Shown here piece after piece: positions 2,681-17,742 of a stretch of 64,000 nucleotides of DNA (positions within the stretch are counted from its first letter, which is position 1; every line of letters begins with the position of its first letter). The stretch lies in contig JAAYXB010000011.1 of NCBI GenBank assembly GCA_012516125.1, positions 1 through 64,000 of the forward strand, given 5' to 3'. Both the position numbers and the translations under genes were made by a program. Source of the stretch: Bacillota bacterium. Lineage in GTDB: Bacteria; Bacillota; SHA-98; UBA4971. The notes under the pieces are model-generated. The model was not told where the DNA came from and searched no databases. It worked only from the letters and a program-made list of their open reading frames with translations.

Positions 2681-4258
2681 CTATTTCACAGAGTAGCCCG
2701 CTTCCCTCAGGAGAGCCTTCGCTTTCTCCGGGTCGTATGGGTAAGGCTTGAGATCAGGGTTGAACCCGAACCCGCTCGGCAGGAACGCCGTGGCAAGGCG
2801 CCTTGCCGTCCCTCCGTAGATGGTCTCGAGGATCCTGTCCCAGTTGATCGCGTAGTTCATCGCCCTCCGCACCCTCACATCGTCGAAGGGCGGCTTTGCG
2901 CAGTTCAGCTCCACGCAGTAAACGCGGGTGCCTTCGACGCTCTTCACCTGCACGTTCCTGTCCTTCTTGAGGCTCGCAGCAAGGTCCGGCGGCACCTGCT
3001 GCACTATCTGCACCTCGCCCGCCTTAAGCGCGGCGATGCGAACCGTGGGATCAGGCATCATCCTGAAGATGGCCCGCTTCACCCTTGCCGGCCCCACCGG
3101 TGGCAGGTCGGGCGATCCACCGTAGTATTCGTCGAACCGCTCCATCACGATCTGGTCGTCGAGCCGTCCCCCGACGAACTTGAACGGGCCGCAGCCAACG
3201 GGCTTCCTCGCGAATTCCTCGTCGCCGACTTTCTCTATGTAGTCCTTCGGCACGACCTGGATGTGCACGAGGCCCTGCAGGAACACGGGAAAAGGGTTCG
3301 CCAGCGTGAACTTGACCGTGTACTGGTCCACCTTCTCCACCTTCTCAAGCGGGCCCAGGAGCCCCTTGCGAGGCGACGACCGGCCGCCGATGGCCCCTTC
3401 CTTCAGCACACGCTCGAAGCTGAACACCACGTCGTCCGCATCGAGAGCCTCGCCGTTATGGAACTTGATGCCCTTGCGAATCTTGAAGACATACACGTTG
3501 TCTGAGGGCGTCGTCCAAGACTCGGCGATCTCCGGCACCACCTTGCCGTCCCAGGTGCGGGTGACGAGCCCGTCAAACATGTTGCGGAGCACAGTCTCGG
3601 TGTCGCGCTCGCGGTGCATCGCCGGGTCTAGGGATACGGCCTTGTCGGTCTTCATCCCCACGACTATGGTGTCACCGCGCATAAGTCCGACATCGTGAAG
3701 GTTAATGCGCGAGTCCATCGCCGGCTGCCACTTCTGCACCTCGGCCCTGGCGGCCTCGGTCTCGCTCAGGTAGTACCCGAAAATCCAGGGCGCGTCCTCG
3801 TACAGGATGGACTGGGCCTCGTAATAGGCCTTTCGCCGGACCTCCGGATCGATAGTGGTAAGCGCCGTGTCTACGACGCGGTCGAATGCTGGGTTACTAT
3901 AGTGTGAGTAGTTGCCGCGGTCTTTGGTGCGCAGCTTGGGCACGGCAAGGTCGAAGGGATCGAAGTATGCGCTGCCCCAGTCCGTGAGGTACATTTGCCG
4001 CTCGCCCTTGAGAGCACTGTCTTTGAGCGCGCTCCATTCCCAGACTCGCACATCAGCCTGGACGCCGATGGCGCGCAGGTCAGCCGCGATGGCCTCGGCC
4101 TCGTCAGCCCTGTTCGCCTCAGCATCGATTACGACGGCCAGGGTCTTGCCGGCCGCCTGAATCGCCCCACTGCTCGGGATCCCCGTTGCGAGCAACCCAA
4201 GAGTTGTGACGACAACCGCAACCCAAAGACCTCTTTTACGGACCAGACTCGCTCTCAT
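2681..4258 (-). CDS. Family-5 extracellular solute-binding protein (DppA/OppA-like) with apparent circular permutation
   Basis: Signal peptide, then SBP_bac_5 C-terminal-type sequence (AEAIAADLRAIGVQADVRVWEW...GNYSHYSNPAFDRVVD...EDAPWIFGYY...INLHDV), then N-terminal-type sequence (DTIVVGMKTDKAVSLDPAMH...VVPEIAESW...IKFHNGEALDADDVVFSFERV...ALLREAGYSVK-stop). Confidence 0.9.
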   Translation of the reverse strand: MRASLVRKRGLWVAVVVTTLGLLATGIPSSGAIQAAGKTLAVVIDAEANRADEAEAIAADLRAIGVQADVRVWEWSALKDSALKGERQMYLTDWGSAYFDPFDLAVPKLRTKDRGNYSHYSNPAFDRVVDTALTTIDPEVRRKAYYEAQSILYEDAPWIFGYYLSETEAARAEVQKWQPAMDSRINLHDVGLMRGDTIVVGMKTDKAVSLDPAMHRERDTETVLRNMFDGLVTRTWDGKVVPEIAESWTTPSDNVYVFKIRKGIKFHNGEALDADDVVFSFERVLKEGAIGGRSSPRKGLLGPLEKVEKVDQYTVKFTLANPFPVFLQGLVHIQVVPKDYIEKVGDEEFARKPVGCGPFKFVGGRLDDQIVMERFDEYYGGSPDLPPVGPARVKRAIFRMMPDPTVRIAALKAGEVQIVQQVPPDLAASLKKDRNVQVKSVEGTRVYCVELNCAKPPFDDVRVRRAMNYAINWDRILETIYGGTARRLATAFLPSGFGFNPDLKPYPYDPEKAKALLREAGYSVK

Positions 4259-4436: not shown

Positions 4437-5350
4437 GCCTTATGCGGCGATGCGACTGCCTCCGTGCGGCCAGCGCTGGGGGGCACGATGACACCTGGGA
4501 AGTTGGATGCTCCGTATCGCCAGGGTGAACTCTCGCGCAGGCCCAGGCCCGGGACAAGGCGCCTCGGGCTCCCGTGGCCTGGACGGAAGAATGCGAGGGA
4601 ACGGAAAAGAACAGGGACGAGGGGAACATAAGACAACAACAACCCAGGGACACCCCTGGGCAATGTGAAGGCGTCCCCCTTTCGACGCTTACGAGGTTAG
4701 CTGACGGGCTCGGACCGAAGGAGCTGGCCCTACCTGCGTTCCCCCGCAGGACTCGCCCCGGACACCTTGGGACCTTGGTTCCCCCGCTCTTCCCGAAGGA
4801 AGATTCAGCGGCCGCACGCGGTTTTGCTGCGGCGAAAACCGACGCATCTATTCCTTTGATTGTATTTTACCACCCGCATGCCAGTTGCGTCAACCAACAC
4901 ATCTGGGCCATCTCGGCCCTTGGCTTTCGGTATAGGCTTCCAATCCTCGACCAGGCACCGGTCAAACCGAATCCCTTGGCGCTGCCGCCAGGACTTACTG
5001 ATCTGCTAAGGAGGGCTTCTGCCCTGCTCCAACTCGAACAGCGCCACCGCGCCCGCCAGTCAAGAGCCAAAGAAGCAATTGGGCGCCTTTGGCCCTGTCA
5101 TCTGCTGCCAATGGAAACTCCCACTGAGCCCCCAGTTCCCTTGTGCTACCAGCCTGAATCAAGGCCCAACAAACTGGCACGCACTGCGTATGGTCAACAC
5201 CGAGGCTAAAGCGATGTCGTCGGCGAACCGCAGGCACGTTTCGTGTGCACGCGTCCCACAGTCGGCCCAGCTCCTGAGTTCGAGCTTGCCGCTCTGCAGC
5301 CAATATGCGACAAGGCCTATCGCGCGTGGCCGCCGGAACCGAGCGTGCAC

Positions 5351-6139
5351 TCAACTGTTCGTCCGCTCCCGGGAACGCGCTCTCCTGCAACTGGCGGCAT
5401 ACTCCTCGCTGAGCCGCGCTAGCATACGCACGTATGGGCCGTCCTCGTCAACTTCTCTGCTGGGTAGAATGCCCGGTATCTTGGCGCGCATGCCCGCGAA
5501 GCTGAGATCCGCCTCGCTAACCTGCACCAATATGATGTTGTTTTTCTGACTAAGAGCAACCTTGATGTGGTCCCTTACCTGGAGAGATTGCAGGTCGACC
5601 TCGTTCGGGTATTGGGCGGTAACCTCATAGTGTTGACGCCCATTATACTCAAATGCGACACCTTCGCGGTAGTACCGATCGTACTCCAGCAGTTGCCCAG
5701 TGACAGGGTGTGCAAGAAATGCCGGCCGACAGTTGTCAACGTAATTGTCTGAATCCACAATGAGATCAAGCCAGGCCTTCATAAGGAACTCCCCGGCGTG
5801 CGTCGCCTCCCATCTGTCCTCTTTAAGACGCAGGGCAAGAGCCTCTTGCGTGGCTGGAGGCACGGTCGCGAGCACCTCCGTCTGACCGGGCTTCGACACC
5901 ATCGTTACCCACCCGGCTACCGCTAACGCTTCACAGTGCCGACGAACTGCGCGCCTGCTAAGCCCGGAAAGCCGCGTGAGTTCGCTCACAGAATTAGGCC
6001 TCTTGAGCTCAATAAGCAGATACAGGTACTTTGCCAGCGGGCCGATCCTCGTGTCGCAGGGCAGGTCGGCAGGAATCGACATCCGGAGCCTTGTTGAAGA
6101 AGACATGATTCGACCCTCCTCGTCTGGTATGTCTCCCAT
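5351..6139 (-). CDS. Winged-HTH protein fused to a PD-(D/E)XK / EDxHD-like nuclease domain
   Basis: N-terminal HTH (KRPNSVSELTRLSGLSRRAVRRHCEALAVAGWV); C-terminal EYNGRQHYEVTAQYPNEVDLQSLQVRDHIKVALSQKNNIILVQV, like phage/homing nuclease folds. Function not established. Confidence 0.6.
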   Translation of the reverse strand: MGDIPDEEGRIMSSSTRLRMSIPADLPCDTRIGPLAKYLYLLIELKRPNSVSELTRLSGLSRRAVRRHCEALAVAGWVTMVSKPGQTEVLATVPPATQEALALRLKEDRWEATHAGEFLMKAWLDLIVDSDNYVDNCRPAFLAHPVTGQLLEYDRYYREGVAFEYNGRQHYEVTAQYPNEVDLQSLQVRDHIKVALSQKNNIILVQVSEADLSFAGMRAKIPGILPSREVDEDGPYVRMLARLSEEYAASCRRARSRERTNS

Positions 6140-6462
6140 ATACTACCATATTGAGGTAGTCTCTGCCAAGTCGTGCCGCGAAGGAGCTTGCGGACCGACA
6201 GCGCTCGATATAGGCCCGCGCTCGTCATAGATAGCTAACCTCAGCCTTGAACGAGTGCGCGGCTATACGAGCACGAGTATGCGTCCATATGAGTGCACAC
6301 TCGAGCGTGCCGCGGCATGCAGCCGACTGGGGGTTTAAGTTGGACACTGCGTGTTTATGGGCCACCGCAGCCGCGTTGACGAGGCCGTCCGTGACTTGCA
6401 TCTTAGTTTGATGTTGCGTATTTGTAGGCGCGCGTGTGCCCGCCGGGGGCCGGGATAGGGAT

Positions 6463-7205
6463 GATCCCTGCAGGACCAAATTGCGGGCAGATCTGGTCCT
6501 ATGGGGACCAGCCCGGCGCAAGATCTGGTCCTCCGGGAACCACCCCTGCCGCCCCCCTTCGCCAAAACCGAGCGGGGTGGAGCACCAGGGACCAGATCTC
6601 GCGTGAAGATGGTCCTCTGGGGACCAGCTTGGCGCACGTCCTGGTCCTCTCGTGACCAGGACGCCTCGGCCGCCGCCCGGGGTGGTGCACCGGGGACCAG
6701 GTTGCCCGCGAGGTTGATCCCCTGGGGACCATCCGCACGCAAAACCTGGTCCTCCGGGGACCAGGGGTTTTTGAACATCTCGCAAGGTGGTTACGTGGGG
6801 ACCAGGTAACTGGCGAAGATGGTCCCCAGGGGACCATCTTCGCGCGTAGCCTGGTCACCAGAGGACCAGATCCGGCATCCTCGTGGAGCGAGCGTCAGGA
6901 GGGTGGGTCTTTGGTAACCAAGTTTTGCTCGAGGCTGGTCCCCCAGGGACCAGCTGCGCGCAAATCCTGGTCCCTTGGGGACCAACCTCCAATGAGCATG
7001 TCCGAAGGTGGTTACCTAGGGACCAGGTGGCGCTCGAACCTGGGTCCCTGGGGACCATCTTTGCGTGGATCCTGGTCACCAGGGGACCAGGTTCGGCGTT
7101 TTGCCGGTTGAACCGCGACGAGGGTGGGTCTCTGGTATCCAGACCTTGCTCGGAGTTGGTCCCTCAGGGACCAGCCTCGCACGAGATCCTGGGATCCCAG
7201 GGACC
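6463..7205. repeat. Phased dyad array A (at least 21 dyads, consensus TGGTCCCCNGGGGACCA, triplets at 32 bp)
   Basis: Dyad starts counted by eye at 6463, 6494, 6526, 6578, 6610, 6642, 6683, 6715, 6747, 6788, 6820, 6852, 6904, 6936, 6968, 7009, 7041, 7073, 7125, 7157, 7189. Spacings: 31/32 within triplets, 41 or 52 between. Confidence 0.92.
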
Positions 7206-7654
7206 ACCCGGGGACCACCTGCGGGCCACCCGGGGACAACCCAGGGACCACCCAGGCGCGAGCGCGGCCACGCGCCCACGTGTCCATCATGCCTAACGTA
7301 GGAAGGAAAGGGCTGCCGCGTCAACAGCCAAGGGGGAGTCCTGCGTCGCGGGCCTGAACATGTGGCATGTGTACATGGTTAAGCTCAGGGTTGGAGCGTG
7401 TGCGAACTGTACGCAGTCTGCTCGGGCGCCGAGCAACTAGAGGCATCAGAACAAAGGGAACGAAACGATGCTGATGGTGGCCTGGTCGGTCAGGCGAGAA
7501 GAGACCGTGACCGCCCTTAACGATGCTCTCACGGTAACCAGATTTTCGCACCCGCACTTAGAGGGAGGAATCGCTGAGCTTGACCGAGAATTATGAGTAA
7601 GGTATGCTGTCGCCACCCTAAGCGGAGTTGGTTAGTCCCCCGGCGTTCCAGCGG

Positions 7655-7728
7655 GTGTGGGGTTGCCGGTGCCACACCTTTCTTTTGAGTCACCGGCCAC
7701 CCCTCCCAAAGTCGAGACAGTTTCTGCA
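7655..7728. repeat. Degenerate short copy of dispersed repeat family I
   Basis: GGGGTTGCCGGTGCCACACC...TTTGAGTCACCGGCCACCCCTCCCAAAGTCGAGACAGTTTCTGCA matches the short-core form seen at 63610 and 47258. Confidence 0.55.
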
Positions 7729-7732
7729 TGGG

Positions 7733-7858
7733 GCTGTTGAAACTCCCCAGCAACTACCAGTCTGCCCGAGCACGGTGACGGTCTTGCATGCTTCAGCCGG
7801 GCTGCGTTGACATGATGTGGGAGACATCAGCAGTGTCTTGCGCTTTACTTAGTGGCGT
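7733..7858 (+). repeat. Dispersed repeat family II, copy 2
   Basis: GTTGAAACTCCCCAGCAACTACCAGTCTGCC...GGGCTGCGTTGACATGATGTGGGAGACATCAGC...CTTGCGCTTTACTTAG. Confidence 0.55.
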
Positions 7859-8523
7859 CCCAAGTACCGCCATCGCGGGAAGCCGCGGCCTCGCAGGAAG
7901 CTTTCAGCGCCAGGGGCGGGCTCGGAAGGTGGCTTGAGTCCCCCGCTGAATTCTGGATTGCCTGAGGTCCTGGAACCTGAGGCCCTGGAATAGGGAGCGG
8001 AGATCTCCGAGCGCCCACGCTTAGGCGAGTTGCGGCCTAGAAGCTACCTCTATGACCGGCTTCTTGCCGAAGATGCGCATCGTCAAATCGCGTCTATGAG
8101 GCACGACGAGGAGCTGTCCGTCGCCTTAAGGGCGTTTTGGAGCGTTCTTCTCGAAACGTGCTCCGAAACTCGCGCGCAACTCTGCTAACCACAGGCTCCG
8201 GCCGCAAAGCGGTGGTTGGGCAGCGTACTCATTGCCCCATGGGCACGGCCCGTGCGCTTTTGGAGCACGCTTCTAGACCAGAATTGCGTTCCAGGATTGC
8301 CCCTTCCGGGCAAATCCGCCCGCCATTGCATCTCGAAGGTTGCAATCTCCGGGGTGCAGATGTAGACACCTGCCCAGGGCAAGCAGTTCGGAGCGGCCTG
8401 CTGGGTCTGGAGGACATGGGCGGTAATGAATGAGCCTGTTACATGGGAATGAGCCTGTTGCATGGGACGCCCGGGGGTGTTCCAAACCACCACGCCGGTG
8501 CGAGCAGGGAGGAAAGATGAACA

Positions 8524-9873
8524 ATGCTGCCAAGGGGAAAACACAACATACTGGGGCGGGCGCCCGCTCCTGCTCCCCTGGTCTCGGCGCGAGACGTCTC
8601 GAAGTACTTCGTGCTTCACGAGACGCTCCTCGCCCGCTACCTGACGGGAGCGAAGGACCGCACGGTCAGAGCGGTGGACGGTGTCAGCCTCGACGTGTAC
8701 CCGGGCGAGACGCTCAGCCTGGTGGGAGAGTCGGGCTGCGGCAAGAGCACGCTCGGGCGCACGATCATAGGCCTGTACGAACCCACCTCGGGACAGGTCA
8801 TGTTCGACGGGAGGCCCATCTCGGGACCTGAGGCCATGCCGCGGGCGAGCCTCAGGCGCCAGGCGCAGATCATCTTTCAGAATCCGTATAGCTCCCTCAA
8901 CCCGCGCCACACAGTACGCCAGATCCTAGGAGTAGCCCTGGCGGCCCGCGGTGTCCCCGCCCGCGAGCGCGAGACCGAAACCATAGCCCTGCTCCGCCGG
9001 GTCGGCTTGAGCGCGGAGCACATAGACAGGTACCCGCATCAGTTCAGCGGCGGCCAGCGCCAGCGCATCGGCGTGGCGCGGGCGCTCGCCATGCACCCAA
9101 GATTCGTGGTAGCCGACGAGCCGCTTTCATCGCTGGACGTCTCGGTGCAAGCCCAAATCATCAACCTGCTCCAGGAGCTTCAAGCGGAGCTCGGGCTCGC
9201 TTATCTCTTCATCACCCACGACCTGCGGGTCGTATACCACATTAGCCACAGAGTTGCAGTGATGTATCTGGGGCAGGTGGTCGAGGTCGCTCCCACGGAC
9301 GAGTTGTTCGAGAACCCGCTCCATCCATACACGCAGGCGCTCCTGTCGGCGATCCCCAGCATCGAGCGGCACCGCCGGCGGCAGAGGATCATCCTGGACG
9401 GGACGGTGCCGACGCCCATCGACCCACCGCGGGGTTGCCGGTTCCACCCGCGGTGCCCCCGGCGCACGGACCGGTGCGAAGTAGAAGCTCCGGAATTCCG
9501 GCAGGTGACAGGGACACCAGAAACGGAAGCGAAAGCGGAAGCGAGAGCAACAGCGAGAGCGAGAGCAGCGTCGGAACCAGGACCAGCAGGATCACGAACG
9601 GGAGCACGAGCAGAAGCAGGATCAGGGGCACAAGTAGGAACGGCGGCAGGGACACGGACAGAGGCAGAGGCAGAGGTAGAGATGGAGATGCAGATGCAGA
9701 TGCAGATGCAGATGGAGATGGAGATAGCCAGAAGGAAAGGAGCAGGACCAGGAGCACGAACGGGGGCAAGCGCGGGAACAGGGGCAGACAGCACAGCAGA
9801 GGTCGCGTCGCGAACAGACGCGGGCGCAATGCCGCAGGGCCACTTCGTTCGCTGCCATCTTGCCTTCGCTTGA
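8524..9873 (+). CDS. Oligopeptide ABC transporter ATP-binding protein (DppF/OppF-like) with low-complexity C-terminal insert
   Basis: Walker A GESGCGKSTLG, signature FSGGQRQRIGVARAL, Walker B FVVADEPLSSLD; family-typical HPYTQALLSAIP and CRFHPRCPRRTDRCE. About 110 aa of repeats inserted before GHFVRCHLA. Confidence 0.92.
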   Translation: MLPRGKHNILGRAPAPAPLVSARDVSKYFVLHETLLARYLTGAKDRTVRAVDGVSLDVYPGETLSLVGESGCGKSTLGRTIIGLYEPTSGQVMFDGRPISGPEAMPRASLRRQAQIIFQNPYSSLNPRHTVRQILGVALAARGVPARERETETIALLRRVGLSAEHIDRYPHQFSGGQRQRIGVARALAMHPRFVVADEPLSSLDVSVQAQIINLLQELQAELGLAYLFITHDLRVVYHISHRVAVMYLGQVVEVAPTDELFENPLHPYTQALLSAIPSIERHRRRQRIILDGTVPTPIDPPRGCRFHPRCPRRTDRCEVEAPEFRQVTGTPETEAKAEARATARARAASEPGPAGSRTGARAEAGSGAQVGTAAGTRTEAEAEVEMEMQMQMQMQMEMEIARRKGAGPGARTGASAGTGADSTAEVASRTDAGAMPQGHFVRCHLAFA

Positions 9874-9899
9874 GAGCCGCCTCGACCCTCTCGACTCTG

Positions 9900-10322
9900 G
9901 AGCGACACCGGCATGTTCTTCCGGTGGCCGCCGCCCGTCACGAACGCGACCCCGTCGAGACCCTAGCGGTCCACTTCCACGGCCCAGCGGGCGATGAGCG
10001 TCTCCAGCGGCTCGCGCTCCGTCTTGGGCCTTGGAAAGCTCCACGCCTGCCACCAGTCCTCCTGGAGCCTTGCGGCCTCGCGCGCGATCTTCTCCCATTT
10101 CTCCCGGCCGGACCTGCGAATGTATTCATCCTTGTTGGCGAAGTCCTCCTCAACCGGGAAATGCGCGTGGAAGTCAAACACGCCGAACGGCGGCCGCCTG
10201 TATCCACCGAAGTCGGGCAGCACGTCCACCTGCTCGCTGCGCCTGCCGGATGCTGATGCCGTATACGCCCCCATGTCGTGACCTCCTGTGAAGCACTGGC
10301 CGGGCGCCTGGCCGTCGGTCAC
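9900..10322 (-). pseudogene. Truncated amidohydrolase-like remnant
   Basis: ORF with FGVFDFHAHFPV...WAVEVDR then TAG; the same frame continues past the stop with GLDGVAFVTGGGHRKN, resembling the next amidohydrolase segment. Confidence 0.55.
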
Positions 10323-11425
10323 GTCAGCCCCAGCCTCATCTCAGCCTCCATCTCAGCCTCCGCCTTCACCCTGCGCACAGCCTCGTCGAAGTAAGCCTCA
10401 TCTATCTCAAATCCTGTGAACGGCACGCCGAGCCTGACGCACGCGATGGCGGTATTGCCGATACCCAAAAACGGGTCGAGCACGAGCCGGCACCGGTCCA
10501 CGCCGTGTAACTTTATGCACATCTCGGGCAGCCGAGGCGGAAACGTCGCAGGGTGCGGCCTGTCCTTCTCGCGCTTGTTGATGGTCTCGTACGGGATGAA
10601 CCAGGTGTTTCCGCGGCACCGCACGCCTGCGCCAGCACTTTTCCAGCGCCCGACGTTGGACTTATCCTGGTACGGAACGCCGATGGCAAGCCTGTCCAGC
10701 GGCACCCTGCCAGTCTTCGTGAAATGGAAAATGTACTCGTGGCAATCGTTGAGAAACCGCTCGCCGTTGATGGGCTTGTAATGACCCACCGCGACGTCCG
10801 ACACTATCGCCCCGTAGTCGCCTACGTCGGCTCTTGAGATGGCGATGGACTTGACCCAGTGGATCACGTTCTGAAGATGGAAAAGCCCCCGGAGCACCCC
10901 GGCCACCTCGAAGGGGACCCACGGGTCCGTGGGCTTGGACCCCACGTTCAGGAAAAACGACGCATCGTCGGACATCGCGTCCCTCACCGCGGCCGCCCAC
11001 TCGGCCGTCCAGGCCAGATAATCACGCCTGTCAATCGTATCGTCATATGCCCCGTACCGGATGCCCAGGTTGTAAGGGGGAGATGTAACGACCACGTCCA
11101 CGCTTCCTGGCGCGAGCCGGCGCCTCATTCCGGATACGCAGTCCTCCAGGTAGAAATCCCACCGGACTCCCGGCGCGCCGCATCGCGTCACGCTTTCCTT
11201 ACGGAAACTCGCTCTGGGATCTTTCACGAACGCACCTCGCCCTGGCACAACCGCCCGCCTTTGCCGCGCCGTATCTTGCTTCGCGGTCCCCGGACGCAGA
11301 ACAAGCGCCCCATCAATCATCAATTCCACATATGCCGAGGATATCCTCCGGGCGGAAGATCGCGAGTGCTTGGTGCTCCTGTCATGGGGCAGGAGTCTCC
11401 AGCGATGCTCGTCCGGGTCCGGCAC
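10319..11425 (-). CDS. Site-specific DNA methyltransferase (N4/N6 amino-methyltransferase type)
   Basis: Motif IV TSPPYN, target-recognition-like middle, then motif I-like [31 protein letters not shown]. Start codon uncertain. Confidence 0.9.
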
Positions 11426-11434
11426 CGGGGCCGC

Positions 11435-12481
11435 TCACCCTCGGAACGTGCCCGCCCTCGTGCCATTCAATGAACCGACCCTGGCTAATGAGTCGGCCTC
11501 CTGGCCCTCGAAAACCTGCTCTTTTGTGGCCCCCTTTGTGGACGTCTTCGGGTCGCGACCCACAGTGGCGCCCCGGTGGCAAGCACGCGTCACCACCGTG
11601 CGACACGTCACGCCGCTGGCCGCGAACGTCGCCGCCATGGCCCTGGCCACGCGGTGCGGGTCGGTCGCGGCGAAGGCGACGACCGACGGACCTGAGCCGC
11701 TTAGCGCCGCCCCGAGCGCCCCCGCCTGCCTGGCCGCTGCCAGCACGTCCGCAAGGCCCGGCACCAGGCCGGCCCTGTAAGGCTGGTGAAGCCTGTCCGC
11801 CATGGCATCGCCCAGGAAGTCGAGCTTGCCTGAGGCGATGGATGCTACGAGGAGAGCCGTTCGACTGATATTGTGGACGGCGTCCGCAAGCGTCACGCTG
11901 CCCGGGAGGACGCGCCTTGCGAGCTCGGTCGGGACATGGAAGTCAGGTATCGCGACCACCACATGAAGACCCCTGGGAACATCCAGCTTAAGATAACGCA
12001 GGCGACCGTGCTCATCTGCGACGCTCACGACAAAGCCCCCGAAGAGGGCGGCCGCCACGTTGTCGGGGTGGCCCTCTATTTCGGTCGCAAGCTGGAACAA
12101 GTCGTTGTCAGTAAGGGGAAAGCCCACGAGGGCGTTGGCGGCCAGGAGCCCTGCCACGATCGCCGCGGCGCTCGACCCGAGACCCCGCGAAACCGGGATC
12201 CGCTGGTGTACGTGGATGCGGAGCCCCGGCACAGGCAGCCCGACCTCCTCGAAGAGGGCGGCCGCCGACCGCGCTACAAGATTCGTCCAGTCGAGCGGCA
12301 GGTCCCTGCTGTCCCCGAGGACGGTGATCTCGAGGCCGGTAGTGGTGGTAGTGCCCATCCTCACCACGTTGAAAAGCTCGAGGGCCATGCCCACGGCGTC
12401 AAAGCCTGGCCCGAGGTTCGCTGTAGACGCCGGTACGCGGACTTCGACCACTTCGACCACAAAGATCACCTTCCTTCTCAT
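11435..12481 (-). CDS. thrB: Homoserine kinase
   Basis: GHMP kinase: VRVPASTANLGPGFDAVGMAL, PVSRGLGSSAAAIVAGL, GAALSGSGPSVVAF; adjacent to thrC. Start placed at MRRKVIFVVEV. Confidence 0.93.
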   Translation of the reverse strand: MRRKVIFVVEVVEVRVPASTANLGPGFDAVGMALELFNVVRMGTTTTTGLEITVLGDSRDLPLDWTNLVARSAAALFEEVGLPVPGLRIHVHQRIPVSRGLGSSAAAIVAGLLAANALVGFPLTDNDLFQLATEIEGHPDNVAAALFGGFVVSVADEHGRLRYLKLDVPRGLHVVVAIPDFHVPTELARRVLPGSVTLADAVHNISRTALLVASIASGKLDFLGDAMADRLHQPYRAGLVPGLADVLAAARQAGALGAALSGSGPSVVAFAATDPHRVARAMAATFAASGVTCRTVVTRACHRGATVGRDPKTSTKGATKEQVFEGQEADSLARVGSLNGTRAGTFRG

Positions 12482-12794
12482 CTTCTTTGTTGTCGTTAGA
12501 GGTGCCCGTAAACTGTCTATGTTCCAGGGAAGTTGTGGCACATGTGCCATGTCCACGGCTTTCTTCATGGTAACCGCCGGCGTCACCATCACGTCACCAT
12601 CACAAAGGTGGATGCGCGGCTAAGTAGCCTCCCATGGCGGCCAGCTGCCGCCACCATCGAAAGGATGAAAACCGCAACCGTCGGCTATTCTCGGCTATTC
12701 TCAGGATAAAGCGTCGCGAGTAGCTGCCTCCTCTTCCAGACCGCGGACCGCTCGTGCCTGCCCGTGCTGAACGGCTACGATCGCCGCTTCTCAG

Positions 12795-12880
12795 CTCAGC
12801 CTCAGGAACAGCGCCCCAAGCGGGCCGCCTTCACGAAACTCCGCCGCAGGCAAATGGCTCAATCCTGACACCCCGCCGCG
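12795..12880. repeat. Degenerate relic of dispersed repeat family I core
   Basis: CAGCCTCAGGAACAGCGCCCCAAGCGGGCCGCCTTCACGAAACTCCG...CAATCCTGACACCCCGCCG resembles core CTCGGGGACGGCGCCCCAAGCGGGGCGCCTTGACAAAATCCGG...GATTTTGACACCCCTCG. Confidence 0.5.
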
Positions 12881-12988
12881 TCTTGGCGACAGGCAGGCGC
12901 CAGGCAGGAAGCGCAGGGCGCGATCCCACCCGCACCCAGGACTCACGTGCAGACTCGCGCGACCGGCGCATGTTCAACCCGGATATGT

Positions 12989-14233
12989 TCAGTCGAGCGG
13001 AGTGCCCGCGGCGACAAGGGCGGCCTCCACTGAGGCCGTGTCCGGTTCCGCTACAATCGGGGACGACCCGAGCCGCATCATGGCGTCCGGATCTTTCAGG
13101 CCGTGGCCGGTCAGGACACACACAACCGTGGCGCCTCGTTGCCCTCGGAAATAGCCCCGGCGCGCCAGCTTCAGCACACCTGCGACCGACGCGGCAGACG
13201 CAGGCTCCACGAGGACCCCCTCCCGCGCCGCCAACAAGCGGCATGCATTGAGGATCTCATCGTCCGTCACGCTCTCTATTACGCCGCCCGACTCGTCCCT
13301 GGCCGCAACCGCGCTCTTCCAGCTCGCGGGGTTCCCGATCCTTATGGCCGTTGCTATCGTCTGCGGCCGCTCGATGGGTCGCCCCTTAACGATCGGCGCC
13401 GCCCCGGCCGCCTGGAAGCCCAGCATGCGAGGCACGGACGTCACCTTCCCCCGGTCCCTGTACTCGCAAAACCCCTTCCAGTAAGCCGTGATGTTGCCCG
13501 CGTTCCCGACCGGAATCGCGAGGTAGTCGGGCGCCCGCCCGCCAAGCTGGTCGCACACCTCGAAGGCCGCGGTCTTCTGGCCCTCGATGCGGTCGGGATT
13601 CAGGGAATTGAGAAGCGCGATCCGGTGCCGTGCCACCATCTCCCGCACTACCGCGAGTGCCTGGTCGAAGTTGCCCCGGACAGCCACCACAACCGCCCCG
13701 TGGGCTATCGCCTGCGCCAGCTTTCCCGCGGCGATGGCGGCCTCGGGGATGACCACCACGGGCCGTATGCCAGCCCTCGCGCAGTAGGCCGCGGCGGAGG
13801 CCGAGGTGTTGCCCGTAGATGCGCACACCGCCACGCGGTACCCGGCTTCCCGTGCCCTGCTCACGGCGTAGGCCATACCCCTGTCCTTGAAGGAGCCGGT
13901 GGGGTTGAGTCCCTCATACTTGAGGTAGACGCGCAACCCAGCGGTGTCTGAAGTCCCCGCGCCTGCAACCGACCCGGGGGGCACCAACGTCCTGGCTCTC
14001 CCTGAACTCTCGCCCGCTTCCAGAACCCCGGCTGGCCCCACAACCCCGGTCGTTTCCGCCCGGGCGCTCGCTTCCGCCTCCCTGACTGCCTCCGAGACCG
14101 CGCGCGCCTCGATGAGTGGTGTTCCCCCTTCTCTCAGTGTGACGACCGCAGCCGGATCGACGTGAGGCAGATAGGCGCCGTATGTGGCGATGATCCCGCC
14201 AGAGGATACGTGTGGCACAGCCGACATGGGCAT
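12989..14233 (-). CDS. thrC: Threonine synthase (with low-complexity insert)
   Basis: PLP lysine motif KYEGLNPTGSFKDRGM, ASTGNTSASAAAY, SLNPDRIEGQKTAAFE; adjacent to thrB. Confidence 0.95.
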   Translation of the reverse strand: MPMSAVPHVSSGGIIATYGAYLPHVDPAAVVTLREGGTPLIEARAVSEAVREAEASARAETTGVVGPAGVLEAGESSGRARTLVPPGSVAGAGTSDTAGLRVYLKYEGLNPTGSFKDRGMAYAVSRAREAGYRVAVCASTGNTSASAAAYCARAGIRPVVVIPEAAIAAGKLAQAIAHGAVVVAVRGNFDQALAVVREMVARHRIALLNSLNPDRIEGQKTAAFEVCDQLGGRAPDYLAIPVGNAGNITAYWKGFCEYRDRGKVTSVPRMLGFQAAGAAPIVKGRPIERPQTIATAIRIGNPASWKSAVAARDESGGVIESVTDDEILNACRLLAAREGVLVEPASAASVAGVLKLARRGYFRGQRGATVVCVLTGHGLKDPDAMMRLGSSPIVAEPDTASVEAALVAAGTPLD

Positions 14234-14387
14234 GCTTTCTCCTTCCAGGGCCGGGAGCACCCCCCAACGCCGGGAGCGCAAGGAGGAATGCACCCAGGGT
14301 GTATATTAATGCACATTGTACCACGAACAGGCGGTAAATGCTAGAGCGAATTCGCCGCGGCGCGCCTGTCGCGTGGGGCGCGTGTAA

Positions 14388-14522
14388 CAGCGTGGTGCAC
14401 AAGAATGTTGAACTTCCCCGGCAGGGTCCAGTTTCGCCGAGAACTGCAACGGCTTTGCGCGATCCGAGCGAGCTGCGTTGACATAATGTGGGAAACAGCA
14501 ACAGCCTCGTGCGCAAGGGCAG
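14388..14522 (+). repeat. Dispersed repeat family II, copy 3
   Basis: GTGGTGCACAAGAATGTTGAACTTCCCCGGCAGGGTCCAGTTTCGCC...GCTGCGTTGACATAATGTGGGAAACAGC. Confidence 0.55.
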
Positions 14523-14671
14523 CTACCCCCGGGGGTGAGTGTGAGGGCACAGTCCGGCTCCAGTCCCTCTTACAGAGCCTTGCGCGGTCCCTCCTACAGA
14601 GCCTTGCGCGCGGAGCGTGGTAGCTCTTTCCGCGTCGAGCCCAACCCACGCGTGGCGCGTTCGCCCCTGGG

Positions 14672-15661
14672 TGGTCCCTGAGAGCCCAGGTTCTCTTGCG
14701 CGGCTGATCCCTGAGGGGCCAACCATTTGCGGAATGTGGTTACCAGAGGCCCACCCTCCGCGGGCTTCACCCGGTGGAAAGCCGGCGCAAGCCCGGATCT
14801 GGCCCCTGGTGACCAGGATCCACGCGGTGGTGGTCACCAGGGGACCAGCTTCGGGCGCCACTTGGTCCTCACGTAACCACTCTCCCAAACGGCCACCAGA
14901 CGGCCACAGGTGGGTGGTCCCCACGGGACCAGGATCTCCTACGCGGTTGGTCCCTGGGGGACCAACCCCGAGCGAAATCTGGTCACCAGAGATCCACCCT
15001 CCTCGCGGTTCAACCGGCAAAACGCCGGACCTGGTCCCCTGGTGACCAGGATCCACGCGGAGATGGTCCCCAGGGAACCAAGTTCGAGCACCACCTGGTC
15101 CCTAGGTAACCACCTTCGCACATGCTCACGGGAGGCTGGTCCTCAAAGGACCAGGATTCGCGCGCAGGTGGTCCCTGGGGGACCGACCTCGAGCAAAACC
15201 TGGTTACCAGAGACCCACCCTCCTGGCGCTCGGGCGACGAGGATGCCGGATCTGGTCCTCTGGTAACCAGGTGACGGGCGAAGTTGGTCCCCAGGGGATC
15301 ATCTTCGCGCGTAACCTGGTCCCCACGTAACCACCTTGCGAGATATCCAAAAACCCCTGGTCCCCAGGGGACCAGGTTTTGCATGCAGATGGTCCCCAGG
15401 GGATCAACCTCGCGGGCAACCTGGTCCCTGGTGCACCACCCCCGGCGGCGGCCGAAGCGTCCTGGTCACGGGGGGACCAGGACGCGCGCGCGAAGCTGGT
15501 CCCCAAAGGACCATCTTCGCGCGTGATCTGGTCCCGGGTGCTCCACCCCGCCCGGTTTTGGCGAAGGGGGGTGGCAGGGGTGGTTCCCGGAGGACCAGAT
15601 CTTGCGCCGGGCTGGTCCCCATAGGACCAGGTCTGCCCGCAAGCTGGTCCCGCAGGGATCA
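14672..15661. repeat. Phased dyad array B (about 27 dyads), inverted copy of array A
   Basis: Dyad starts at 14672, 14705, 14737, 14800, 14831, 14863, 14915, 14948, 14980, 15032, 15064, 15096, 15137, 15169, 15201, 15253, 15285, 15317, 15358, 15390, 15422, 15463, 15497, 15529, 15581, 15613, 15645. Reverse complement of 15480-15661 is near-identical to 6480-6660. Confidence 0.92.
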
Positions 15662-15807
15662 TCCCTACCCCGGCCTCCGCGGGCGCATGCGCGCCCGTAG
15701 ACACCTAGAAGCTTACGCCTAATCCCGCCGTACTCCACCCACGGGCTGACCGTCATGCCCAGAAGCTGCGATCTGCTCCGTGAGCGTGCCGTCGCGGAGG
15801 TCCGGCG

Positions 15808-15851
15808 TGGATTTTGGAGCAGGCTTGTGGATTTTGGAGCAGGCTTCTGGC
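15808..15851. repeat. Short direct duplication
   Basis: GTGGATTTTGGAGCAGGCTT occurs twice in tandem. Confidence 0.85.
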
Positions 15852-16086
15852 ACCGGACTTATAGATAACAGAGCTTGGACTTAGAAGTTGCGCAGGACGT
15901 TGAGAGCACGGACAGCGGGCAAGTTAACCGCAGGCCTGGGCATCGGCTCACTTCCGCATTGACTTCGACTTCGGAGGCGGTCATTTGTAAACCCTTAACC
16001 CTCGAGCGGCCGCATGGCATGGCGCGCCCGACTACGCTCTCATTCGCGCTCATAACAGCCGCACACTCGTGCAAGTTTGAGGTTGG

Positions 16087-17742
16087 CTATCCATAGTACC
16101 TTGCGGCGACCGGCATCCTGCGCCCGACGCCGAACGCCTTGCTCGTCACCTTGAGTCCCGGGGCGGCCTGGCGCCTCTTATACTCGTTCCGGCGCACTGC
16201 CCGCGCCACCCACTCGACCGTCTCGCGCGGGAAACCCCGCCGCATGAGGTCGTCGGGCGACTCGCCCTCCTCGATGTAGCCGTGGAGGATGGCGTCGAGC
16301 ACCTCGTAGGGCGGCAGGGTGTCCTGGTCCGTCTGGTTGGGCCGAAGCTCGGCCGAGGGGGCCTTCTTGATGATCGCTTCCGGGATGACCTCCGATTCGC
16401 GGTTTACGTAGCGCGCAAGCTCGTACACCATAGTCTTGGGGACGTCCGCCAGCACCGCAAGGCCCCCGCTCATGTCCCCATAGAGCGTGCAGTAGCCAAC
16501 CGCAAGCTCGCTCTTGTTGCCCGTTGACAGCACCAGATGCCCGAACTTATTCGAGAAGGCCATAAGGATGTTGCCGCGTATGCGCGCCTGGATGTTCTCC
16601 TCGGTTATGTCCAGCTCCGCGCCGGCGAAGTGCGGGGCGAGGGCATCCAGGTAGGAAGCATAGATAGGTGATATCGGAATTACCTTGAACTCGATCCCGA
16701 GATTCTCGGCGAGCTTTCGCGAGTCCTCCACGCTCCCCCGGGACGAATACGGGGACGGCATCGAGATCCCGAGGACGTTTTCGGCGCCCAGCGCGCGGAC
16801 GGCGATGCAGCATGTGAGCGCCGAGTCGATGCCGCCCGAGAGGCCCACGACCGCCCGCGTGAAACCTGTCTTCCTCATGTAGTCCCTCACGCCGAGGACA
16901 AGCGCGTCGTGTACGGACTCCACCGTGTCCTGGGGTGTATACGGCGCCGCGGCGCCCGGCGCGGACATGTCCACCTCCTGGACGTGTTCGGTGAAAGCCG
17001 GGCAAACGGCGATGGGGCGCCCCGCCGCGTCCACGGCGAGGCTGCGACCGTCGAAGATTAGCTCGTCGTTGGCGCCTACCTGATTAACATAAAGGAACGG
17101 CGCGCCGTGGCGCCTGGCGTGGTTGCTGATAAGCCGGTATCGCTGGGCATCCTTCCCAGCGTGGAACGGAGAGGCGGAAATGTTCACATGGAGCGTCGCC
17201 CCCGCCCGCGCCAGCACCCCGATGGGGTCGAGATCATACATCCGCCTCTTCGGCCAGAGGTCCGGGTCGTTCCAGGCGTCCTCGCAGACGGAGATCCCGA
17301 GGATCTCACCTTTGAACGGCACAGGCTTTATCTCGAGAGCTGGGTCGAAGTAACGAGCCTCATCGAACACGTCATAGGTCGGAAGGAGCGATTTGGCCTG
17401 GACCGCAACGAGTTCGCCCCCGCACACCAGGACTGCGCAGTTGTGAAGGCCCTTTCCTGAAGGGGTCGTGGACCGCAGCGGGGCGCCGAAGAGCACCCCC
17501 ATCCCAGGAAAACGCGCCGATGCCCGCCGTATCTCGTCCACAGCGCGCTCGCACGCCTCGACGAACCACTCCCGCTCGAGAAGGTCCCTGGGCGGATAGC
17601 CCACCAGGAAAAGCTCGGGAAACACCACAAGGTCAACACTCGCCCCGGTGCGGCAAAGATCATCCAGGGTCTCGAGCATCCTTTGCTTGTTGCCGTCGAT
17701 GTCTCCGACAGTCGGGTTCAACTGGGCGATCAGTATCCTCAT
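16087..17742 (-). CDS. nadE: Glutamine-dependent NAD+ synthetase
   Basis: N-terminal nitrilase-type amidase (MRILIAQLNPTVGDIDGN...VFPELFLVGYPPRDLL) plus synthetase domain (VVGLSGGIDSALTCCIA; STGNKSELAVGYCTLYGDMSGGLAVLADVPK). Confidence 0.95.
   Translation of the reverse strand: MRILIAQLNPTVGDIDGNKQRMLETLDDLCRTGASVDLVVFPELFLVGYPPRDLLEREWFVEACERAVDEIRRASARFPGMGVLFGAPLRSTTPSGKGLHNCAVLVCGGELVAVQAKSLLPTYDVFDEARYFDPALEIKPVPFKGEILGISVCEDAWNDPDLWPKRRMYDLDPIGVLARAGATLHVNISASPFHAGKDAQRYRLISNHARRHGAPFLYVNQVGANDELIFDGRSLAVDAAGRPIAVCPAFTEHVQEVDMSAPGAAAPYTPQDTVESVHDALVLGVRDYMRKTGFTRAVVGLSGGIDSALTCCIAVRALGAENVLGISMPSPYSSRGSVEDSRKLAENLGIEFKVIPISPIYASYLDALAPHFAGAELDITEENIQARIRGNILMAFSNKFGHLVLSTGNKSELAVGYCTLYGDMSGGLAVLADVPKTMVYELARYVNRESEVIPEAIIKKAPSAELRPNQTDQDTLPPYEVLDAILHGYIEEGESPDDLMRRGFPRETVEWVARAVRRNEYKRRQAAPGLKVTSKAFGVGRRMPVAARYYG

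Follow-up and report, generated by a model that had tools for sequence, protein, structure and literature searches.

Phased dyad arrays in a dispersed MITE-like element of a Bacillota genus: putative platforms for a dimeric DNA-binding protein

Results

The window analysed here comprises 64,000 bp (positions 1 to 64,000, forward strand) of contig JAAYXB010000011.1, part of a 3.24 Mb draft genome (assembly GCA_012516125.1; G000 below) of a Bacillota bacterium. Two arrays of short dyads were located in it. Array A (6462–7206, plus strand) lies mid-contig and has 21 dyads, each 17 bp long, that are grouped in triplets; its element's left flank (6225–6461, plus strand) starts at a terminal repeat copy, CATAGATAGCTAACCTCA (6225–6242), and after its last dyad comes an 11-bp tandem tail (CCCGGGGACCA; 7196–7253, plus strand; found with TRF) made from the right half-site. 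Array B (14672–15661, minus strand), absent from the initial annotation of this DNA and located by a pattern scan of the window, is an inverted second copy that contains an additional 221-bp unit and is 90% identical to array A over 787 bp. It sits between thrC-like and nadE-like genes on an insertion (14345–16095, minus strand; left limit at 14344 approximate) that has no counterpart between those genes in the outgroups G001 and G003, where the two genes adjoin without an array. The left terminal repeat of element B (TATGGATAGCCAACCTC) occupies 16079–16095 on the minus strand, and from exactly 16096 onward the sequence is again homologous to G001. Another dispersed repeat (GGCTGCGTTGACATAATGTGGGA...) lies near both arrays (7780–7850 and 14470–14520).

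Beside array A, on the minus strand (5351–6139), is a gene for a 262-aa protein with an N-terminal winged helix-turn-helix (HTH) and a C-terminal domain resembling phage homing endonucleases (family matches at E 1e-6 to 1e-8). Elsewhere in the window, a c-di-AMP riboswitch (RF00379, E 9e-17; 4671–4820, minus strand) was the only RNA family match; it lies upstream of a family-5 solute-binding protein gene (2681–4258), after which come oppB/oppC-like permease genes. The array itself had no Rfam match.

The initial annotation had described array A from spacings counted by hand, with triplets of dyads 32 bp apart separated by 41 or 52 bp and a perfect dyad at 6820. Exact computation placed the dyad starts at 6462, 6494, 6526, 6578, 6610, 6642, 6683, 6715, 6747, 6788, 6820, 6852, 6904, 6936, 6968, 7009, 7041, 7073, 7125, 7157, and 7190, and thus reproduced the array, its triplet grammar and the position of the perfect dyad. 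The resulting series (32-32-52-32-32-41-32-32-41-32-32-52-32-32-41-32-32-52-32-33) agrees with the hand count at every inner interval and departs from it by 1 bp at the first and the last. Thirty-five sites in the window matched the dyad unit consensus, TGGTCCCCNGGGGACCA, with at most three mismatches (16 in array A and 19 in array B), as compared to 0.68 expected from shuffles. Arrays are also built of nested tandem units of 32, 105/116 and 221 bp, with 65–71% internal self-similarity. Array A is found mid-contig both here and at the matching locus of an independently assembled sister species (G004; record JACIXY01, Bacillota MAG-64), and it is therefore not an assembly artefact.

The dyad centres of array A were best fitted by a common helical repeat of 10.52 bp (R = 0.957) and those of array B by one of 10.56 bp (R = 0.92). 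When the three spacing classes were redrawn randomly within about 5 bp of those observed, 2.9% of draws were as good at their best repeat, and 0.9% were as good within 10.4–10.6 bp. The earlier proposal that the centres lie on one face of the helix was thus upheld.

Conservation followed the motif. Across 23 arrays, 54% of columns in the dyad arms were invariant vs. 25% in the spacers, a contrast that held for each base and outside CpG and was maximal at shift 0. Arm columns in which the consensus equalled the motif were invariant in 61% of cases, as compared to 22% for those departing from it (a value like that of the spacers), and 105 of the 136 variants in motif-departing arm columns reverted to the motif. 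Spacing was kept as well: 414 of 441 intervals were exact, most departures falling at two positions. At three matching loci the arrays had accumulated 157 substitutions and no indels, vs. 81 substitutions and 12 indels in the left element flanks at the same loci; over all pairs there were 0.027 indels per substitution in arrays vs. 0.22 in the preceding 100 bp, a contrast that may be somewhat inflated by flanks prone to slippage. Conservation at matching loci (7.3% vs. 19.2%) is no clean measure of selection after insertion, since the arrays exchange segments, and the case for such selection from matching loci is weakened by this mosaicism; repair between similar dyads could also mimic part of the motif conservation. 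Both marks of a phased protein-binding array, a common helical phase and motif-specific conservation, were found.

The 17-bp units could be read as half-sites for a protein or as the arms of hairpins, and the initial annotation had allowed for either. In 444 dyads from the 23 arrays, pairing within dyads was about the same as partner-shuffled pairing at every position (e.g., 0.77 vs. 0.77; 0.63 vs. 0.69), and the same equality was seen in ten arrays from six other genomes. Changes leaving G-T and those leaving A-C occurred in 69 vs. 57 cells (33 vs. 29 events), without strand asymmetry, and 10 double compensations were observed vs. 5.3 expected. Neither a family match nor strand-specific covariation, as would mark a structured RNA, was thus present, and a function as RNA or hairpin was rejected on the half-site shuffle, strand-asymmetry and compensation tests. 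With no excess of pairing within dyads and no strand asymmetry, the units are read as independent inverted half-sites, as for a symmetric dimer; the comparison supports the view that each comprises two such half-sites for a putative dimeric DNA-binding protein. What stands of the earlier reading is thus the one-face phasing, the triplet grammar, the distinction from a simple satellite and the multi-site, putatively protein-binding array, while its hairpin alternative does not.

Pattern searches located about 31 array places in G000, some of them split by contig ends, and G004 carries many arrays of its own. We estimate roughly 20–30 arrays per genome in these two species, a copy number made uncertain by the many contigs that end inside arrays; several such ends have exactly 141 bp in common, which looks like an assembly k-mer effect. 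Every copy follows the same grammar when it is read from the left, and at the right end the number of 221-bp units varies. The copies have common flanks of about 200–430 bp to the left and 200–440 bp to the right, which terminate in inverted repeats, TATAGATAGCCAACCTCA ... TGAGTTGGCTATCTATA, present at both ends of several copies. No target-site duplication was visible in the old, diverged copies inspected. Terminal-repeat matches in G000 numbered 35; those sampled were arrays or elements of 110–125 bp, and no transposase-bearing copy with the same ends was recognised among them. The shorter elements are ERIC-like, with ends like TATAGATAACCAAGCTCGAA, and occur in G000, G004 and G001 (e.g., L146:2726–2837 and L097:4434–4546); the outer ends of the array element resemble them in several copies. 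Given the empty site of array B in G001 and G003, and the resumption of homology at the 16095/16096 junction, the array core is taken to sit in a non-coding, dispersed, MITE-like element that would have arrived before G000 and G004 split. This setting had been missed in the initial annotation, as had the recurrence in other genera of the architecture rather than the sequence.

The arrays are mosaics in which the nearest relative switches about every 100 bp, and distances between arrays within a genome (0.151 and 0.164) are close to those between genomes (0.159). The segment from thrC to a methylase is inverted in G004 relative to G000 (G004:C95:123948–126497 vs. 6462–14293 in the window), with arrays A and B of G000 at its two ends; in the outgroups G001 and G003, thrC adjoins nadE, as in G000. 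Recombination between inverted arrays apparently produced this inversion. The segment bounded by the two arrays includes an N6/N4 DNA methyltransferase gene (10319–11425, minus strand).

Genes neighbouring the arrays had no common function, being diverse housekeeping genes, and a regulon was rejected as an explanation on that ground. The right-hand gene points away from the array in 21 of 29 cases and one of 19 sites is convergent, a weak trend in which matching loci were counted twice. The array DNA had no similarity in 48 other genera and no match in viral contigs, plasmids or phages, and the latter result led us to reject a phage or plasmid origin.

A sequence-blind search, specifying only TGG-N11-CCA three times at 32 bp, picked out this architecture in 10 of 399 genomes and in none when the pattern was reversed. 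Chain scores of the traced arrays were 5–26, whereas DNA that was reversed, shuffled or free of arrays scored no higher than 3. Half-sites differ among these arrays (TGGTCC, TGGTCGC, TGGCAAGA, TGGTCAAT, TGGTAAGA), while triplets and the gaps of 41 or 52 bp persist. The G001 array has 18 sites with half-site TGGTCGC (32-32-41-32-32-52-32-32-41-32-32-41-32-32-52-32-33); that of G003 has 13 with half-site TGGCAAGA (32-52-32-32-41-32-32-41-32-32-52-32). In another genus (G012) there are 20 sites with half-site TGGTCAAT and 32-32-41 repeated, and in another family (G390) three arrays of 15, 21 and 19 sites with half-site TGGTCA and 32-32-41/42 repeated; G008, G013 and G016 have a looser form. Best helical repeats in these other genomes were 10.50–10.66 bp with R of 0.91–0.98, values favoured by a tracing that allowed only near-phased spacings.

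A second array family, with half-site TGGTCGC, is present in G000 itself (G000:C15:42569–43269; L193:6070–6770). TGG and CCA are kept in all 20 of its sites, which are all in phase (R = 0.973), its grammar is 32-32-41-32-32-41-32-32-52-32-32-41-32-32-41-32-32-52-32, and it has 81% identity with the G001 array, which lies at an unrelated locus. The gap order 52-41-41-52 recurs in three half-site families (TGGTCC, TGGTCGC and TGGCAAGA), which points to common descent in which spacing would have been conserved as the letters changed. Diverged relics of the TGGTCC type were found in G001, one with at least 7 dyads and another a triplet of 3, and G003 has one well-kept dyad of this type with weak neighbours; a lone conserved operator was not found above control in array-free relatives.

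Some other repeats came up in the course of these searches. Beside the TGGTCGC array of G001 is a tandem run (L187:6376–6810) with a period of about 60 bp, in which the palindrome TGACGTACGTCA alternates with CGTTCCCGACGTCAC. A Bacteroides MAG has a short intergenic array of TGGTCC-N5-GGACCA dyads with a period of about 22 bp and variable loops (L043:4330–4425), the one sequence read among similar dyad pattern matches that include L031, L034, L035 and L046, and a Deltaproteobacterium MAG has a short run of TGGTCCATGCCGGACCA repeats with a period of about 24 bp (L032:4030–4105). With their tight periods of 22–24 bp, the Bacteroides and Deltaproteobacterium matches (one locus of each) were rejected as instances of the same system.

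The 5351–6139 gene flanks array A in both G000 and G004, and a 35%-identical homologue in G012 ends where the only array found in that genome begins. Residues E152-Y-D154, E164, G167, Q169-H170, R189-D190 and K193 are invariant in four homologues, giving the pattern E-Y-D ... E-x-x-G-x-Q-H ... R-D-x-x-K. The EDxHD family of homing endonucleases has been described (PMC3943268). On its sequence, the 262-aa protein may belong to that family; a structure model from a two-sequence alignment was of too low confidence for use (pLDDT 41). The G003 homologue has no array in the roughly 0.55 kb before it or the 1.5 kb after it, and no homologue was found in plasmids or viral contigs, phages matching the C-terminal part only. 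The protein is a candidate array-associated protein, a lead rather than a demonstration.

Discussion

Among known systems, the array element resembles MITE/ERIC-like elements: it is non-coding, dispersed and intergenic, with terminal inverted repeats (TATAGATAGCCAAC...), many copies, empty matching sites in relatives and a related 110–125-bp family in the same genomes. It differs in having a core of 0.7–1 kb with about 20 phased dyads, and neither a target-site duplication nor an autonomous partner was found. The initial annotation did not recognise the array as REP/BIME, iteron or CRISPR, and nothing found here places it in those classes. REP/BIME sequences of enterobacteria and pseudomonads are likewise regularly spaced extragenic palindromes dispersed over the chromosome, and BIMEs bind IHF and gyrase (PMC2817692). 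The arrays, however, lack a GTAG-type signature, the RAYT family (Y1_Tnp, PF01797) is absent from G000 and G004 (the one match being in G003), and their dyads show no compensatory maintenance of the complementarity that REPs keep; on these three grounds the identity was rejected. Plasmid centromeres, iterons and oriC boxes present many copies of one site at whole-turn spacing for cooperative binding, and the arrays resemble them in the repetition of one site at whole helical turns. They differ in their tens of chromosomal copies, their dyadic sites, the triplet grammar of 32-32-(41 or 52) and the lack of a recognised partner gene cluster; an iteron or plasmid origin was rejected because the dyads occupy tens of intergenic places on the chromosome, beside genes of many kinds, and had no plasmid or phage matches. 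A CRISPR array was rejected on the grounds that dyads vary and that a spacer at a given position is conserved from copy to copy; no cas genes were found in the scanned proteins of the window or in those neighbours of arrays that were read.

Several explanations can be set against one another. A higher-order satellite without function, in which a 32-bp palindromic monomer was duplicated into units of 105, 116 and 221 bp and spread within a MITE by a transposase, would make the regular spacing a record of duplication history only. The nested tandem units, with their internal self-similarity and variable number at one end, are as such a satellite would have them, and so are the TIR-like ends and many copies. 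We consider this origin unlikely: spacers diverge but the bases matching the motif do not, indels are almost absent, and other genera combine the 32/41/52 grammar with unrelated half-sites, a constancy of architecture under changing sequence that neutral duplication does not predict. It is very improbable that the arrays work through hairpins, whether in RNA or in extruded single-stranded DNA (as a terminator, an mRNA stabiliser, or a REP-like element). Every dyad can form a stem of 6–8 bp, and either strand of the region folds far better than shuffled sequence (z −9 and −15), but both strands fold alike, as expected for any array of palindromes; mismatches are conserved, and the pairing and compensation results are those of independent half-sites.

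There may instead be a selfish system in which the HTH-nuclease encoded at 5351–6139 binds the arrays, makes cuts close to them and drives both their gene conversion and their spread. The position of the gene beside array A in two species and of its homologue against an array in another genus, the invariance of E-D...H...D-type residues in a domain like that of phage homing endonucleases, and the mosaic structure of the arrays are all in its favour. We regard it as quite unlikely, however, with the G003 homologue lacking a nearby array, with most arrays lacking the gene (it was not seen beside those of G390, G008, G013 and G016), and with a chance, roughly estimated at 5% and thus not negligible, of one common neighbour among many.

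The reading that we favour, and think probably correct, takes each array as a multivalent platform on which a dimeric DNA-binding protein would occupy one face of the helix, the MITE-like element having spread these platforms in the genus. Protein binding, the dimeric nature of the binder and co-evolved specificity are all inferred. Each site would span 17 bp and comprise two inverted half-sites, TGGTCCC and the complementary GGGACCA, and with about 20 sites lying 3, 4 or 5 helical turns apart, bound dimers would face the same way and could contact each other or a second array. Such a platform would have become the core of the non-coding element and been carried to roughly 20–30 intergenic places, where copies would exchange segments by in-register recombination and could form the end points of inversions. 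The platform would have other half-sites in related genera, the binder or paralogous binders having drifted in specificity as the geometry held. In the cell the platforms might anchor or bridge the chromosome, or they might keep the element silent or control its own spread. Counting against a platform are the lack of a lone operator in array-free relatives, the lack of a common function among neighbouring genes, and the exchange of segments between arrays.

Nothing comparable was found in the open-access literature. More tentatively, and with a good deal less assurance than for binding platforms as such, the arrays might represent an undescribed class of chromosomal platform, in which triplets of dimer sites (3-3-4 or 3-3-5 turns) are held in geometry and half-sites drift alongside a dedicated binder, serving as a chromosome anchor or bridge or as a mobility platform for the HTH-nuclease. 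A sequence-blind search on spacing can find further such arrays. Non-coding arrays whose spacing is kept across genera as their recognised letters change would offer a natural experiment on the separate evolution of DNA-binding specificity and geometry. In one genome they number in the tens, with hundreds of phased sites, which would also mark them as strong candidates for a system of chromosome organisation or silencing that sequence-based searches miss.
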